This document shows positions 5,750 to 19,189 of a stretch of 22,122 bases of DNA, piece after piece. This stretch comes from a virus. The position numbers were made by a program, and so were the translations under genes. The stretch covers positions 1-22,122 of the IMG/VR virus record IMGVR_UViG_3300007555_000041; one strand, written 5' to 3'. Each line of letters starts with the position of its first letter. Within the stretch, counting starts at the first letter, position 1. The notes below the pieces were generated by a model that saw only the letters and a list, made by a program, of their open reading frames with translations, had not been told where the DNA came from and made no database searches.

Positions 5750-7555
5750 ATGAATACAGTACATGGTATTGTGGTAGACTATTCTCGCGACGGCTTGTTT
5801 GATACACTGGGTGTATTACGTCTTAGAGAATCGTATATGCGTGATGATGAGGTATCACCACAAGAGAGATTTGCTTTTGTATCAAAAGCTTTTGGAACGG
5901 ATGAAGAACATGCGCAACGATTATATAATTATTCTTCTAAGCATTGGCTCAGCTATTCTACTCCTATCCTATCCTTTGGTAGGTCGGCGAGGGGTTTACC
6001 TATTAGCTGCTTCCTACCTTACCTTGATGACTCTAGCGCTGGTCTCGTTAACACATTATCCGAAGTAAATTGGCTCAGCATGCTGGGCGGAGGAATTGGA
6101 ATTGGAATTGGAATTCGTGCATCAGATGACAAGAGCGTTGGGGTTATGCCTCATCTTAGAACTTATGATGCTTCAAGTCTCGCTTACCGACAGGGTAGGA
6201 CTCGCCGTGGTAGTTATGCTGCATACCTTGATATTAGTCACCCTGATATTCTCTTATTTCTAGAGATGAGAAAACCAACTGGTGATCCCAATATGAGGAC
6301 CCAAAACTTGCATCATGGTATTAATATTACCGATGAGTTTATGCAGTTGGTCGAACGCAGTATGATTGACAAAGACGCAGACGATTCTTGGAACTTAGTT
6401 GACCCACATAACAGTGAAGTAAGAGAGGTGGTGTCTGCGCGGGAACTCTGGCAACGTATTCTTGATATGCGTATGCAGACCGGTGAACCTTATCTACACT
6501 TTATCGATACGAGTAATAAACATATGCCAGAGTTTCAAAAGAAACTTGGTTTAAAAATTCGTCAATCTAATCTGTGTTCAGAAATTATTCTTCCTACAGA
6601 TAAAGAGAGAACTGCGGTCTGTTGTTTATCGTCTCTAAACTTGGAGTACTATGATGAGTGGAAAAATGATACTTTATTCCTTAATGATGTTGCTGAAATG
6701 CTTGACAATGTACTTCAGTATTTTATTGATAATGCTCCTACCACCGTTGAGCGTGCAAGGTTCTCTGCCACACGTGAGCGCTCTATTGGCGTCGGTGCTC
6801 TGGGCTTCCATGCTTATCTCCAACAATGCGGAATCCCTTTTGAATCACCTATGGCCGTCGGAAGAAATAGACAAATTTTTAAACACATCAGGGAGCAACT
6901 AGATGAAGCTAATCAACAGCTTGGAAAACTTCGCGGAGAAGCACCTGATGCAGTGGGGAGTGGGCAGCGCTTTAGCCACCTTATGGCTATTGCTCCTAAT
7001 GCTTCTAGTTCAATTATCATGGGTAATACTTCTCCTAGTATCGAGCCATACCGTGCTAATGCCTATCGCCAAGACACTCTTTCGGGGTCTCATCTGACGA
7101 AGAACAAGTGGTTAGATAGAGTTATTCAAAAACACCTGTCTGGTGATGGTGATATAGTATCACAAGATGACTACAATGAAATTTGGTCAAGCATTATTGC
7201 AAACGATGGTTCAGTACAACACCTTACATGGATGGATCAATGGCAGAAAGATGTATTTAAAACGTCAATGGAAATAGACCAGAGATGGCTTGTACAGCAT
7301 GCCGCCGATCGCCAAGAATATATTGATCAAGCACAATCACTTAACCTGTTCTTCCGGCCAGACGTTAATATTAAGTATCTACACGCCGTCCATTTCCTTG
7401 CTTGGAAAACAGGACTTAAGACCTTGTACTATTGTCGTAGTGAAAAGATTGGTAAGGCAGATAAAGTATCTAAACGTATTGAACGAGAAGTAATTAAAGA
7501 ATTGGATATGAAGGCAATTATTGATGGTGATGTTTGTTTAGCCTGCGAAGGCTAG
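5750..7555 (+). CDS. nrdA: Class I ribonucleotide reductase large subunit, short form
   Basis: Reduces ribonucleoside diphosphates to deoxy forms together with NrdB. Visible key residues are the redox Cys C87 (PISCFLP), the active-site triad N274-C276-E278 (NLCSE), the second redox Cys at 291 or 292 (VCCLSSLNL), the radical-transfer tyrosines Y560-Y561 (LYYCRS) and a C-terminal CLAC pair (C596, C599) for re-reduction. At 601 residues it is much shorter than the E. coli or T4 proteins (about 750-760). The protein begins near the barrel-proximal helices, with no ATP-cone domain seen at the N-terminus, so dATP activity control is probably absent. The next gene's ATG directly follows the TAG. Confidence 0.9.
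   Translation: MNTVHGIVVDYSRDGLFDTLGVLRLRESYMRDDEVSPQERFAFVSKAFGTDEEHAQRLYNYSSKHWLSYSTPILSFGRSARGLPISCFLPYLDDSSAGLVNTLSEVNWLSMLGGGIGIGIGIRASDDKSVGVMPHLRTYDASSLAYRQGRTRRGSYAAYLDISHPDILLFLEMRKPTGDPNMRTQNLHHGINITDEFMQLVERSMIDKDADDSWNLVDPHNSEVREVVSARELWQRILDMRMQTGEPYLHFIDTSNKHMPEFQKKLGLKIRQSNLCSEIILPTDKERTAVCCLSSLNLEYYDEWKNDTLFLNDVAEMLDNVLQYFIDNAPTTVERARFSATRERSIGVGALGFHAYLQQCGIPFESPMAVGRNRQIFKHIREQLDEANQQLGKLRGEAPDAVGSGQRFSHLMAIAPNASSSIIMGNTSPSIEPYRANAYRQDTLSGSHLTKNKWLDRVIQKHLSGDGDIVSQDDYNEIWSSIIANDGSVQHLTWMDQWQKDVFKTSMEIDQRWLVQHAADRQEYIDQAQSLNLFFRPDVNIKYLHAVHFLAWKTGLKTLYYCRSEKIGKADKVSKRIEREVIKELDMKAIIDGDVCLACEG
6092..6115 (+). repeat. Four tandem GGAATT units inside nrdA
   Basis: Four perfect copies of the hexamer GGAATT encode alternating Gly-Ile residues in the glycine-rich loop (GGGIGIGIGIR). 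The protein loop resembles that of related phage NrdA proteins, so the repeat is probably coding-constrained, yet it is a possible slippage site. Confidence 0.8.
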
Positions 7556-8197
7556 ATGAAAACAATAGCTTTATTTGTATGTGATCCAAAGTGCTCCGTA
7601 CAAAGTAGCAATGGTATTATTAACGCTTTAGGTGATTATTATAAATTTAAGCTATTTTCAAAAAACGAAGTTGAATATAATTTTTTTGATAATGTTGACA
7701 TAATAGCTGTACCAGGGGGATTTGGTCACTCGGATTCCTTTGATACGTTATTAAAACATAATGGTGAATCGATTGTTAAATATGTTAGGAGCGGGACACC
7801 CTATCTCGGTATTTGTATGGGTGCTTATTGGGCTGGTAAACATTACTTTAATATTCTAGATGATGTTGATGCCGTACAGTACTTAAAGCAATCTAATACC
7901 GATACACGCAGACCACATGCAAAGAACATTAAAATAGAGTGGTTAGGTAAACCTATGAATATGTTTTGGTACGATGGGTGTGCTTTTACAGGACCGGGGT
8001 ACTACGATACTATTGCAAAGTACTCTAATGATGACCCAATGGCAATTATACAAAATAATATAGGGCTGATAGGATGCCACCCTGAAAGTCAACAATTTTG
8101 GTATGATAGCTACAGCTGGTTAAAGGGTAAATATCATAACGGTGAACATCATAAATTATTACTAGAGTTTGTAAACGAATTAATTAACAGAAAATAA
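7556..8197 (+). CDS. Class I glutamine-amidotransferase-like protein (BPL_N-like)
   Basis: This 213-residue protein has the class I GATase fold signature: IIAVPGG (49-55), a nucleophile elbow GICMGAY with C87, and a C-terminal GCHPES with H175 and E177, completing a Cys-His-Glu triad. The match is closest to the biotin-protein-ligase N-terminal type (BPL_N) family, often stand-alone proteins of unknown substrate. It sits directly between nrdA (ATG follows the nrdA stop) and nrdB (one base), so it is expressed with dNTP synthesis. It could supply ammonia from glutamine for modification of a nucleotide, or be a peptidase-like hydrolase. No synthetase partner domain is seen in this window. Confidence 0.7.
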   Translation: MKTIALFVCDPKCSVQSSNGIINALGDYYKFKLFSKNEVEYNFFDNVDIIAVPGGFGHSDSFDTLLKHNGESIVKYVRSGTPYLGICMGAYWAGKHYFNILDDVDAVQYLKQSNTDTRRPHAKNIKIEWLGKPMNMFWYDGCAFTGPGYYDTIAKYSNDDPMAIIQNNIGLIGCHPESQQFWYDSYSWLKGKYHNGEHHKLLLEFVNELINRK

Positions 8198-8198
8198 A

Positions 8199-9191
8199 AT
8201 GTCAAAGAAAAATCAAAGTATACTTACAGATGAACGTAATTCCTTTAAACCGTTTAATTATCCATGGGCGTATGATGCATGGTTAAAGCATGAGCAAAGT
8301 CATTGGCTTCACACCGAAGTACCAATGGTAGAGGATGTTAAGGATTGGAAGAAGAAGCTTACTCAAGAAGAAAAGACATTCTTGACTAACATCTTTCGAT
8401 TCTTTACTCAAGGTGATATAGATGTTGCAGGTGGATATGTAAATAACTATCTACCTTATTTCCCACAACCAGAGGTTCGGATGATGCTGCTTGGCTTTGC
8501 TGCACGTGAGGCACTACACATAGCCGCCTACTCGCATCTTATAGAGACCATTGGTCTGCCAGAAACTATGTATAATGAGTTTATGGAATATGCAGAGATG
8601 AAAGAGAAGCATGATTATGTATTAGAAATCTCACAACAAAACTCATCTAAAGAAAATACCGCTAAACACATTGCAGTATTTTCCGCCTTCACCGAAGGAA
8701 TGCAGCTGTTTAGTTCCTTTATTATGTTACTGAACTTTCCACGTCACGGTAAAATGAAGGGCATGGGTCAGATTATAACTTGGTCTATTGTTGATGAAAC
8801 ACAACACTGTGAATCTATGATTAAGTTATTTAGAACTTATATTCAAGAGAACCCTGAGATATGGAACGATGAACTTAAAGGTCAGATATATACAATTGCT
8901 GAACGAATGGTTGAACTTGAAGATAAGTTTATTGATCTGGCATTCAGCCTAGGACCTATGGCTGATTTGGAGGCCGCTGATGTAAAGCGTTATATCAGGT
9001 ACATTACTGACCGTCGCCTCATTAGCCTTGGTCTTAAGGGTATTATGAAGGTTAAGAAAAACCCATTACCCTGGGTTGAAGAAATGATTAATGCACCTAC
9101 GCATACTAACTTTTTTGAAAATAGAGCGACCGATTATGCTAAAGCCGCTCACACCGGTACCTGGGATGAGGTCTGGGGTAAGGCTGCTTGA
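8199..9191 (+). CDS. nrdB: Class I ribonucleotide reductase small subunit
   Basis: Di-metal radical subunit that partners NrdA. The helical ferritin-like core keeps the ligands D73 (FTQGDIDVAG), E104 and H107 (REALHIAAY), E166 (FTEGMQ), E200 and H203 (VDETQH). Y111, seven residues after E104, matches the radical tyrosine position of class Ia enzymes, so a tyrosyl-radical enzyme is expected rather than a Tyr-less subclass. The 330-residue length is close to other phage NrdB proteins. The C-terminus (TWDEVWGKAA) is the presumed NrdA-docking tail. The stop overlaps the next gene's TTG start. Confidence 0.92.
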   Translation: MSKKNQSILTDERNSFKPFNYPWAYDAWLKHEQSHWLHTEVPMVEDVKDWKKKLTQEEKTFLTNIFRFFTQGDIDVAGGYVNNYLPYFPQPEVRMMLLGFAAREALHIAAYSHLIETIGLPETMYNEFMEYAEMKEKHDYVLEISQQNSSKENTAKHIAVFSAFTEGMQLFSSFIMLLNFPRHGKMKGMGQIITWSIVDETQHCESMIKLFRTYIQENPEIWNDELKGQIYTIAERMVELEDKFIDLAFSLGPMADLEAADVKRYIRYITDRRLISLGLKGIMKVKKNPLPWVEEMINAPTHTNFFENRATDYAKAAHTGTWDEVWGKAA

Positions 9192-9622
9192 AAGAAAAAT
9201 ATATTAAAGCTCACATGAAGGTAGCTCAGGTTTATGCTGAGCTGTCAACAGCTGTACGTCTACAGGTGGGTTGTGTAATTGTTAAAGATAATACTATTAT
9301 TGGTATTGGTTATAACGGTATGCCTTCAGGTTGGGACAACACCTGTGAAATAATTAAGCACACCGATTTTACTGGTACAGTAGTAACTATGTCCAAGCCT
9401 GAGGTATTGCATGCTGAAACAAATGCAATTGCTAAAGTATCACGATCATCTAATTCAACTGACAGTGCTGATCTTTTTGTCACACATGCCCCCTGCCTTG
9501 AATGTGCTAAATTAATTTATCAGTCAGGAATAAAATCTGTTTATTATAGGGATATATATCGTGATACACGCGGGCTGGACTTTCTTCAAGCCTGTAACAT
9601 AGAGGTAAATAAAATTGTATAA
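9188..9622 (+). CDS. dCMP deaminase
   Basis: Converts dCMP to dUMP, feeding dTTP synthesis. The zinc site is intact: H75-A-E77 (LHAETNA) and PC103LEC106. The substrate loop GYNGMPSGWDNTCE is typical of phage deoxycytidylate deaminases. I take the TTG at 9188, which overlaps the nrdB stop, because MKEKYIKAHMKVAQVYA fits the usual N-terminus. The ATG at 9215 would cut into the first helix. Gene order nrdA-GATase-nrdB-dCMP deaminase forms one nucleotide-supply block. A thymidylate synthase is not in this window. Confidence 0.88.
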   Translation: MKEKYIKAHMKVAQVYAELSTAVRLQVGCVIVKDNTIIGIGYNGMPSGWDNTCEIIKHTDFTGTVVTMSKPEVLHAETNAIAKVSRSSNSTDSADLFVTHAPCLECAKLIYQSGIKSVYYRDIYRDTRGLDFLQACNIEVNKIV

Positions 9623-16782: not shown

Positions 16783-17829
16783 ATGAGATTAGAACCATAC
16801 ACAATTTTCGTCTCTCTATGCTCATACAGAGACCCCCTCCTGTACAGTACAGTCATGTCATTGATACAGGGGCGGTGTGGGAGGAATAGAATAGTTATTG
16901 GAATATTTGAGCAGATTGTTGCTGAAGACTCACTGCCGGTAAAGTATCCTGATATTAAAGAAGCTATTGACGCGTACGAAAATAACACACTTAGGTCAGT
17001 GAATGGCGGGCCAAGGCCAGCGGAAATTATATATAAACGAATTGATCCCCAATACTCTAATGGGGCTGGGTGGGCTAGAGCTATTAACCAATATCAACTA
17101 TCTCCTGATGAATATGATTTACTTTATCAAATTGACTCCCATATGCTTTTTGATAAAGATTGGGATAGGACCCTTATAAGCGATTATGAGGATGCAATTA
17201 TTAAGTACAATACTAAAAAAGTAATTATAACTGCGCCGTGTAAGTGGTACGATGTTCTTGAGGATAACAGTATTTCTAAAGGCCCAGAATTATATTATGA
17301 AGGTACTAAGGATATAAGTTACAGAGCGACAGGTCACATGTTGTATTATATGACAAATGCATTTGTCAATGGGTATATTATATCTGCTCATGGACAAATT
17401 GATCCTATAGGACCAGGGATACGGGATGCATTCCACATATGCGCAGGTAATACTGTCTTTCCGTCACAGTGGGTACGAGATGTAGGTAACAATATTGAAA
17501 TTCACTTTGAAGGGGAAGAACAGTGGCTTAGTCTGGCTTCTTTTGCAGCAGGGTATCAACTATGTCATCCAAAAGAAATTGTAACATACCATTATATGAA
17601 ATCGGGTAATTATATTACAAAAGTATGGTTTGAACAGGTTGTAAGTAATTTCAGAAGGTCACATGATGTATTAAGGTCAATCGCTGAATTATCAAAGTTG
17701 ATAACAACGTTACCTGAAGATGTTTTAAAGAGATTTTATGAATATTCAGGAATTGATTATATAAATAAAACTGTAGATCAGCGGGCTCTACATCCCCATC
17801 CCCCTTTTACCCTACCGCCAAAAGAATAA
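16783..17829 (+). CDS. GlcNAc-type glycosyltransferase (PF11397-like)
   Basis: This 348-residue protein starts with IFVSLCSYRDPLLYSTVMSLIQ, the signature of the family related to Skp1 GlcNAc transferase, and continues with IGIFEQ, then GAGWARAINQY. A D-x-H metal or nucleotide-sugar motif follows in YQIDSHMLF (D118, H120). A later block FHICAGNTVFPSQWVRDV fits the acceptor side. It lacks a signal peptide or membrane segment, so it acts in the cytoplasm on phage DNA, virion protein or host glycans. The substrate is unknown. The flanking genes are phoH and lysins. No glycan-precursor genes are seen nearby. Confidence 0.75.
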   Translation: MRLEPYTIFVSLCSYRDPLLYSTVMSLIQGRCGRNRIVIGIFEQIVAEDSLPVKYPDIKEAIDAYENNTLRSVNGGPRPAEIIYKRIDPQYSNGAGWARAINQYQLSPDEYDLLYQIDSHMLFDKDWDRTLISDYEDAIIKYNTKKVIITAPCKWYDVLEDNSISKGPELYYEGTKDISYRATGHMLYYMTNAFVNGYIISAHGQIDPIGPGIRDAFHICAGNTVFPSQWVRDVGNNIEIHFEGEEQWLSLASFAAGYQLCHPKEIVTYHYMKSGNYITKVWFEQVVSNFRRSHDVLRSIAELSKLITTLPEDVLKRFYEYSGIDYINKTVDQRALHPHPPFTLPPKE

Positions 17830-17833
17830 CCAA

Positions 17834-18451
17834 ATGAATATTACATTAGAACAGTTACAAAGCCTTATACCAAACGCTGTTGGAGGACCGGAGGCATGGT
17901 ATGAGCCACTATGTGAAGCATTACCGCAATACGAGATAAACACCGTTGAAAGAGTTGCAGCGTTTATAGCTCAGTGCTCACATGAATCTGGTGGTTTTTC
18001 TGTTTTAGAAGAAAACCTAAACTATAGAGCAGCCACACTCTCTAAGTTATGGCCACAAAGATTTCCACCAGGTGTAGCCGAGCAGTATGCGGGTAAGCCT
18101 GAAATGATTGCTAATAAGACTTACGGTGGTAGAATGGGTAATGGGTCGGAAGAAACTGGTGAAGGGTACAAGTACAGGGGCCGTGGTATTCTTCAATTAA
18201 CAGGTAAGGATAACTATAAAACCTGTTCTCAAGCACTCTTTCAAGACGGGTCTCTTTTAGAAGACCCTGATCTTCTTTTAGACCCGTATTATGCAATTCA
18301 TTCTGCTTGCTGGTTTTGGAATAAAAATAAATTAAACCAATTTGCAGATTCTGGTGATCTAACAACAATGACTAAAAAAATTAACGGCGGAACAATTGGG
18401 CTTGAGGATCGTATTAAGCACTATGATCATGCTGTAGAGATCTTAACATAA
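17834..18451 (+). CDS. GH19-type endolysin
   Basis: This 205-residue glycoside hydrolase family 19 (chitinase-like lysozyme) protein should cleave peptidoglycan glycan strands at lysis. It shows the catalytic motif HESGGF (H50, E51), the following LEENLNYRA (E60) and the conserved YRGRGILQLTGKDNY and KKINGGTIG blocks, so it looks active. No signal peptide or membrane segment is seen, so release needs a holin. It is followed nine bases later by a paralogue. Confidence 0.85.
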   Translation: MNITLEQLQSLIPNAVGGPEAWYEPLCEALPQYEINTVERVAAFIAQCSHESGGFSVLEENLNYRAATLSKLWPQRFPPGVAEQYAGKPEMIANKTYGGRMGNGSEETGEGYKYRGRGILQLTGKDNYKTCSQALFQDGSLLEDPDLLLDPYYAIHSACWFWNKNKLNQFADSGDLTTMTKKINGGTIGLEDRIKHYDHAVEILT

Positions 18452-18460
18452 GGAATATTA

Positions 18461-19189
18461 ATGAGTTATAACTTTACCTTAGCCCAGCTATCGCTTCTAA
18501 TAAGAGAGCCTGGGGAGTCCGAGAACTGGTACGAGCCTCTTTGTGCGGCAATGGATCAGTACGAAATTAACAGTGCAATAAGAATATCTTCTTTTCTTAC
18601 TCATTGTGCCTACATGACAAAACGATTTACAGAAATGGAAGAAGACTTAAGCTACAGCGCTGAAGATTTAGTAAAGACATGGCCTAATATATTTACAGTA
18701 GAAAATGCTGTATCATACGCCGGTAATCCCGAAAAGATTGCTAATAAAGCGTACAGCAATATACTGGGTAATGGTTCAGAAGAATCAGGTGATGGTTATA
18801 AGTTCAGAGGACGCGGCCTGTTAATGATTCGCGGTAGAGGTGATTACACTACATGTTCACAGACTCTCTTTCGGGATTCAAGATTGGTAGATACACCAGA
18901 TTTAGTAAAAGAAAAACCTACCTGTATTGATTCAGCTGGTTGGTTCTGGTCTACAAATAATTATAACGTAAGGTACGATGCTGATACGAAGTATGTGCAA
19001 TTTGGTATGCCAGGTAATACTACTTTTGTTGCTAATACTATACTAGATAATACAGTAAATATTCCGAATATTAATATTATTAATACCGGCGGTAAGTCAG
19101 AGGCAGCATTGACCAGTAGAGAATCACAATCCGCAATCAGTAACTATTCATCGCTCTTACCCTTCATACTGGAAATAACTAAAGTATAA
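18461..19189 (+). CDS. Inactive GH19 paralogue with C-terminal insertion
   Basis: This 242-residue protein is clearly homologous to the preceding endolysin along its first 170 residues (NWYEPLCAAMDQYEIN, LGNGSEESGDGYKFRGRG, SAGWFWS). The catalytic HESGGF has become CAYMTKRF, so His50 and Glu51 are replaced by Tyr51 and Met52. The conserved QLTG is now MIRG. The second acid is kept (E61). An insertion of about 30 residues precedes a remnant of the INGG motif (INTGGKSEAA). A tandem duplication followed by loss of catalysis and gain of another role, such as binding or a structural role, is likely. The ribosome-binding site AAGGAA is present. Confidence 0.75.
   Translation: MSYNFTLAQLSLLIREPGESENWYEPLCAAMDQYEINSAIRISSFLTHCAYMTKRFTEMEEDLSYSAEDLVKTWPNIFTVENAVSYAGNPEKIANKAYSNILGNGSEESGDGYKFRGRGLLMIRGRGDYTTCSQTLFRDSRLVDTPDLVKEKPTCIDSAGWFWSTNNYNVRYDADTKYVQFGMPGNTTFVANTILDNTVNIPNINIINTGGKSEAALTSRESQSAISNYSSLLPFILEITKV

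Follow-up and report, generated by a model that had tools for sequence, protein, structure and literature searches.

The gene lying between nrdA and nrdB in the phage sequence analyzed here (hereafter GAT) probably encodes a BPL_N-like cysteine hydrolase of the class I glutamine amidotransferase (GATase) fold, which would be an accessory cargo of T4-like phages and not a dedicated subunit of ribonucleotide reductase (RNR), of dNTP synthesis or of a modified-base pathway. The sequence, a 22,122-nt virus record from IMG/VR (IMGVR_UViG_3300007555_000041; hereafter the window), stems from a phage known from environmental sequence alone. It corresponds over its full length to positions 94,764–116,885 of a 159,688-nt contig (99.94% identity, 13 mismatches), on which a gp23 match (PF07068, E = 3.9e-146) indicates a T4-like phage. 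The carriers of GAT are apparently T4-like phages of freshwater bacteria, as judged for 'freshwater' from the titles of bacterial records.

GAT occupies positions 7556..8197 of the plus strand and encodes 213 amino acids, from an ATG start to a TAA stop codon. Its left neighbor on the same strand is nrdA (5750..7555; class Ia RNR large subunit, Ribonuc_red_lgC E = 6.5e-104), the TAG stop codon of which ends immediately before the GAT start codon, and its right neighbor is nrdB (8199..9191, plus strand; RNR small subunit, Ribonuc_red_sm E = 1.1e-75), which begins with ATG a single base after the GAT stop codon. A dCMP deaminase gene follows downstream in the operon (9188..9622, plus strand; PF00383 1.5e-22, phrog_174 1e-50). 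The gap-free filling of the nrdA–nrdB junction described in the first-pass annotation is thereby confirmed, and the window indeed holds no dedicated synthetase of the families examined. A Shine–Dalgarno-like GAAGG (7547..7551, plus strand), read from the sequence and presumed functional, lies within the 3′ end of nrdA, and the same stretch stands before nrdB in relatives with an empty junction. GAT is more AT-rich than both neighbors (34.1% GC versus 41.7% for nrdA and 39.3% for nrdB). Elsewhere in the window, a GlcNAc-type glycosyltransferase gene (16783-17829; PF11397 4.6e-21) has phoH on one side and, on the other, a tandem pair of lysozyme-like paralogs (17834-18451 and 18461-19189).

The identity of GAT as a glutamine-amidotransferase-like protein is borne out by Pfam, in which the gathering score of the GATase family is exceeded (PF00117; 33.5 versus 22.8 bits), and by a predicted class I GATase fold. 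The protein also passes the gathering score of BPL_N (PF09825; 28.5 versus 24.2 bits, the alignment covering residues 24–96 only), as do its homologs L066 (39.9 bits), L075 (43.2 bits) and L072. It falls below all NCBIfam cut-offs, including those of every named GATase subfamily, with a best score of 23.1 bits versus 181 for PdxT. An identity as PdxT was rejected (23 versus 181 bits and 12.7 versus 105.6 bits for the equivalog cut-offs; PdxS in 0/17 GAT contigs), as were the GATase domains of CTP synthase, HisH and PurQ, all of which scored at most 19 bits, under their equivalog cut-offs (CTP_synth_N in 0/17 contigs). A PHROGs profile search gave no match to GAT, PADLOC returned no anti-phage defence family at an E-value of 0.01, and tblastn revealed no match in cultured phages. 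Searching the PDB by sequence yielded weak matches only, and a weak alignment with yeast HIS7 pairs both GAT motifs with GICVG and HPEK.

An AlphaFold2 model built on a 54-row alignment (A1) reached a pLDDT of 95.8 and a pTM of 0.93. Using Foldseek and VIA-align, PdxT was determined to be the nearest solved fold (Z 19.9, 2.4 Å, 176 residues, 15% identity), and the 50 best PDB chains were class I GATases and their relatives, with HisH, PurQ, TrpG, homoserine acyltransferases and gamma-glutamyl peptidase scoring somewhat below PdxT. In BFVD, the top match was a type 1 GATase of Yasminevirus, followed mostly by CTP or FGAM synthase domains of large viruses and herpesviruses among the other strong matches, which indicates that no close viral relative of GAT is contained there. 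The predicted fold alone would not settle the function of GAT.

GAT was compared with several known systems. It shares with BPL_N a GATase-like fold and a family score, and the triad of the yeast domain (C89/H215/E217) is kept as in GAT (PMC12582158); however, eukaryotic members are fused to a biotin-protein ligase, whereas GAT is a stand-alone protein of 213 amino acids with no ligase domain matched in its reading frame and no biotin gene seen nearby. PdxT/Pdx2, the glutaminase subunit of PLP synthase, offers the closest solved fold and the same triad, but GAT lies far under the equivalog cut-off and PdxS was absent from 17 GAT contigs. Free-standing class I GATase-fold proteins such as Arabidopsis gamma-glutamyl peptidase GGP1, TM1158 and DnfC are likewise single-domain, some of them without a synthase partner (Z 15.5–17.7), although they are just 13–16% identical to GAT.

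A tblastn search confirmed relatives of GAT in 73 viral loci. As read previously, residues 87, 175 and 177 are Cys, His and Glu, forming an intact triad. The predicted nucleophile Cys87 (codon 7814..7816, plus strand), within the motif YLGICMGAYWAGKHYF, was found in 58/58 distinct viral sequences of our first alignment and, without exception, in a larger set of 65 bacterial and 72 viral sequences. The remainder of the triad, encoded by the His175-Pro176-Glu177 codons (8078..8086, plus strand), was present in 55/58 viral sequences of the first alignment and, in the larger set, in 67/72 viral sequences and all 64 bacterial sequences covering the site. The P53-G54-G55 codons (7712..7720, plus strand) specify a PGG loop, with G54 and G55 invariant in A1, which we take to form the oxyanion hole as in class I GATases. 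Further invariant residues in the 54 rows of A1 are Y83, L84, G85, G89-A93, Q108, Y109, W129, G141, Y156, N158 and W182. GAT is thus a real gene, recurring with the same junction in other contigs, carrying conserved residues and showing low dN/dS values (0.05–0.12 versus seven close relatives).

Five viral homologs depart from this pattern (L063, L066, L067, L209 and L219, with coordinates L063:5977-6642, L066:3104-3748 and L067:618-1262 for the first three), carrying Cys-x-Asp in place of His-x-Glu while keeping Cys87 and its surrounding motif. These variants are under purifying selection (dN/dS of ∼0.04 for L066-L067 and 0.10 for L209-L219), so that what is conserved may be something other than canonical glutaminase chemistry. 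Moreover, the BPL_N domain of yeast biotin-protein ligase, despite its positioned triad, did not convert glutamine to glutamate in vitro (PMC12582158). Both observations speak against a cargo hydrolase and in favor of a conserved function other than amide hydrolysis, whereby GAT would bind a ligand or protein as inhibitor, decoy or regulator and use Cys87 for other chemistry; the many invariant residues off the triad, from Q108 to W182 as listed above, point in the same direction. We nevertheless regard such a function as unlikely, given that the near-universal retention of His and Glu would be hard to explain without catalysis and that PADLOC gave no match. Quite unlikely, in our estimation, is a further possibility, namely a viral BPL_N/GATase subfamily acting on a substrate of its own, distinct from glutamine and from known GATase partner reactions, which would tolerate the exchange of His/Glu for Cys/Asp as long as the Cys nucleophile is kept and would be swapped as an allele between RNR genes as a means of countering or redirecting some function of the host.

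The position of GAT was evaluated by a survey that started from nrdB, independently of GAT, and that covered the 80 closest of at least 599 loci, 63 of them with both nrdA and nrdB; genes were called as longest non-overlapping ORFs, many contigs are fragments, and trees were obtained by quick searches. Among these 63 loci, the nrdA–nrdB gap varied between -44 and 3,004 nt, and 34 distinct gene contents were encountered. The commonest occupants were thioredoxin (28), GAT (18), a ∼215-aa protein (15) and a staphylococcal-nuclease homolog (SNase; 11), followed by IscU-like (6), Fe-S_biosyn (6), GT2 (3) and metallophosphatase (3) genes and, rarely, aldolase II, SET, 2OG oxygenase, DUF5672 and others, and 13/63 junctions lacked any gene of at least 70 aa. 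The ∼215-aa protein, third in frequency, is without Pfam match (L210:3984-4631 and 14 other gaps). Genes for GT2, metallophosphatase, Fe-S_biosyn, IscU-like and SNase proteins sit at 75-83 kb in the window phage's own contig. On the NrdB tree, the presence of GAT changed at least 13 times, at least four of these changes being forced by well-supported branches.

Near relatives of the window phage display the same junction in several states. Two loci with NrdB 92-93% identical to that of the window (L149 and L150) have an empty junction, with 1 nt between nrdA and nrdB. In two others (L066 and L067; NrdB 92-99% identical), the GAT protein is merely 46-48% identical to that of the window. At the DNA level, the flanks of L067 mostly share 86-100% identity with the window, while most of its GAT drops to 46-65%; in L066, most of the middle of the gene is 51-66% identical and the last ∼60 nt are >90% identical. 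In both, DNA identity recovers at the YLGICxGAYWAGKHYF stretch and is back to ∼91% or more at the 3′ end. A fifth locus (L153; NrdB 90%) starts its gap with the first 24 codons of GAT, MQTIALFVCNLNSCVRSSYIKLRR, followed by a stop codon (together the first 75 nt of the gap) ahead of a different gene, and by its sequence appears to be a fossil of cargo replacement. The rest of this gap is taken up by an unrelated gene of 201 aa, which has a ribosome-binding-like site of its own, and by a thioredoxin gene.

The swapped, empty and remnant junctions, together with the AT-richness of GAT, point to a recombinational cargo slot, which is what comparison suggests the nrdA–nrdB junction of this lineage to be, with nrdA as its left and nrdB as its right edge. 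Class Ia RNR genes of phages are known to be 'sometimes interspersed' with unknown genes (PMC3653736), and in T4 mobE is inserted between RNR genes (PMC2988022). The slot described here resembles such T4-type insertions in that a mobile gene enters the junction of two RNR genes, but differs in taking up many metabolic genes, beyond homing endonucleases. As a swap-in site for assorted accessory genes, the junction renders the position of GAT no evidence for a DNA-building or DNA-modifying job. Two observations run against the cargo reading: GAT is the second commonest gene of the slot in the 63 loci surveyed from the 80 closest, and its clustering with RNR genes on the GAT tree is far from random (7 changes versus 27 in shuffles), much of which is explained by shared phage descent.

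We further analyzed the neighborhoods of 54 viral GAT loci flanked by at least 1.5 kb in both directions. An nrdA or nrdB gene occurred within ∼4 kb of GAT in 18/54 loci and was absent in 36/54. A consistent association of this family with RNR genes, which the first-pass annotation had proposed to look for by a gene-neighbor survey, was therefore not observed (18/54 flanked GAT loci, 18/63 nrdA–nrdB loci), and its suggestion that the placement of GAT implies a nucleotide-linked job loses its footing in view of the slot turnover and of the 36 loci away from nrd genes. These data also bear on the possibility that GAT is a glutaminase subunit supplying ammonia to a synthetase, of phage or host, in nucleotide or dNTP metabolism, its location between nrdA and nrdB reflecting this role. 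Such an activity would agree with the intact triad and a class I GATase fold nearest PdxT, HisH and PurQ, with the co-directional arrangement of GAT, nrdA, nrdB and the dCMP deaminase gene in one operon, with two loci in which a dCMP-deaminase-like gene accompanies GAT at a distance from nrdAB (L042 and L052), and with the RNR-related nature of some slot genes, e.g. thioredoxin. In addition to turnover, unrelated cargo and distant loci, however, no named GATase subfamily cut-off was reached, and the search for a partner synthase with PdxS, CTP_synth_N and Asn_synthase profiles in 17 GAT contigs, and for QueC, showed nothing recurrent, PdxS and CTP synthase being absent and Asn synthase giving weak PP-loop matches only; we thus consider a nucleotide-linked donor improbable. 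A PP-loop-looking ORF near GAT in one locus (L012; SGGIDS, no Pfam match) was dismissed as a partner, as it is not recurrent. In the same 115-kb viral contig, GAT lies near a sodium:dicarboxylate symporter and an Asp/Glu racemase (L012:3228-8161). In the literature, no title or abstract retrieved by a search for phage GATases next to RNR genes proved relevant.

Among the flanked loci, 15/54 carried a metallophosphatase gene without any nrd gene near GAT, frequently together with a family 4 glycosyltransferase gene, and the remaining loci had neither neighbor. A phage-borne metallophosphatase gene, in many cases accompanied by one for a family 4 or family 2 glycosyltransferase, was seen near GAT in L011, L019-L024, L038, L046, L053-L055, L068-L070 and L074. 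In marine bacteria, plcP-agt pairs swap phospholipids for glycolipids (PMC4796936), and GAT could by analogy partner a phosphate-scavenging or membrane-lipid cargo (metallophosphatase and GT4, PlcP-Agt-like, or a phosphate-binding-protein homolog), acting for example on a glycolipid or amino-lipid substrate. The 15 metallophosphatase loci, in which the gene lies within ∼4 kb of GAT in several GAT clades and varied gene orders, would fit this proposal, as would a nearby PBP_like_2 (phosphate-binding-like) protein in four loci (L038, L055, L060 and L062). In contrast, the same genes pass through the nrdA–nrdB slot without GAT (L201), so that shared cargo zones suffice to explain the co-location, and the metallophosphatase and GT4 proteins match LpxH and glycolipid synthases only far under the NCBIfam cut-offs. 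We accordingly attach little probability to a lipid-linked role.

The bacterial homologs of GAT (74 loci, 36-51% identity) derive almost entirely from metagenome-assembled genomes labeled as Burkholderiales or other Betaproteobacteria, with few Rhizobiales/Hyphomicrobiales. No constant neighbor was found for these orphan genes, and no que cluster. They are rare, being detected in 1/200 genomes of the order, namely the query's own. On the GAT tree, all bacterial sequences sampled fall into a single clade except for L075, which groups with a viral sequence.

An ammonia donor for a modified base had also been envisaged for GAT, and this idea stands in part, since the phage does encode a 7-deazaguanine pathway. 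Its cluster (L230:10574-18094, corresponding to 30,574-38,094 of contig G001) lies on the 160-kb contig of the window, 65 kb from GAT, and comprises genes for QueE, FolE, a DNA guanine transglycosylase homolog, a formyltransferase-like protein, QueC, a class II-like amidotransferase, a dCTP-deaminase-like protein and QueD. The transglycosylase homolog is 52% identical to a Flavobacterium phage protein so named, and the QueE-like gene matches phrog_2076. By inference from known systems (PMC6884629), 7-deazaguanine is probably present in the DNA of the window phage, and an unusual derivative could be suggested by the formyltransferase-like gene (PF00551, at 24.4 bits slightly short of the cut-off). 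QueC is adjoined by a 205-aa protein starting with MC that is 36-39% identical to QueC-adjacent Vibrio phage proteins, some of them annotated 'nucleophile aminohydrolase'; with no match in Pfam, NCBIfam or PDB, its class II label follows this phage annotation and the N-terminal Cys.

A role of GAT as nitrogen donor in this DNA modification would draw on the presence of the pathway, on two loci with GAT directly downstream of a queE-like gene and folE (L017 and L018), and on the amidotransferase step used by known dG+ phages (PMC6884629). GAT resembles Gat-QueC and the phage dG+ amidotransferases as a phage amidotransferase gene in a phage with preQ0 genes; here, however, the neighbor of QueC is a separate class II-like gene and GAT is of class I and 65 kb away, so that the modified-base idea falters where GAT itself is concerned. 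Furthermore, QueC was clear in just 2 of ∼22 GAT-bearing contigs (24 contigs examined, several perhaps incomplete), which argues that GAT is not a dedicated donor of the pathway; none was seen in G008, G009 and G017 (each >160 kb) or in G018 (160.7 kb). Together with bacterial homologs devoid of a constant neighbor and of a que cluster, this makes a dedicated 7-deazaguanine role very unlikely, some incidental help by GAT to the pathway being conceivable.

Overall, we come back to the accessory cargo reading, in which GAT is most likely an amide hydrolase. The analysis shows the reading frame, the fold prediction, the triad, the selection and the turnover of the slot, whereas hydrolase activity, substrate and absence of a dedicated partner are what we infer. 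Inserted in the recombinational slot between nrdA and nrdB, GAT would probably be co-transcribed with the RNR genes. Cys87, activated by His175/Glu177, would attack a carboxamide or gamma-glutamyl bond and thereby set free ammonia or an amine. With a carboxamide as substrate, Cys87 would presumably pass through a thioester, aided by His175/Glu177 and the PGG loop. For this the enzyme may need no partner, or it may rely on a protein of the host or on one whose gene lies elsewhere.

Taken together, these results call for caution, as operon position in T4-like phages is a poor guide to function at a junction that shows empty, occupied, swapped and remnant states. With GAT, a conserved family of viral proteins is defined that has neither a PHROG nor a cultured representative, and its triad-variant clade could serve to test the role of the enigmatic BPL_N domain, including that of eukaryotic biotin ligases.
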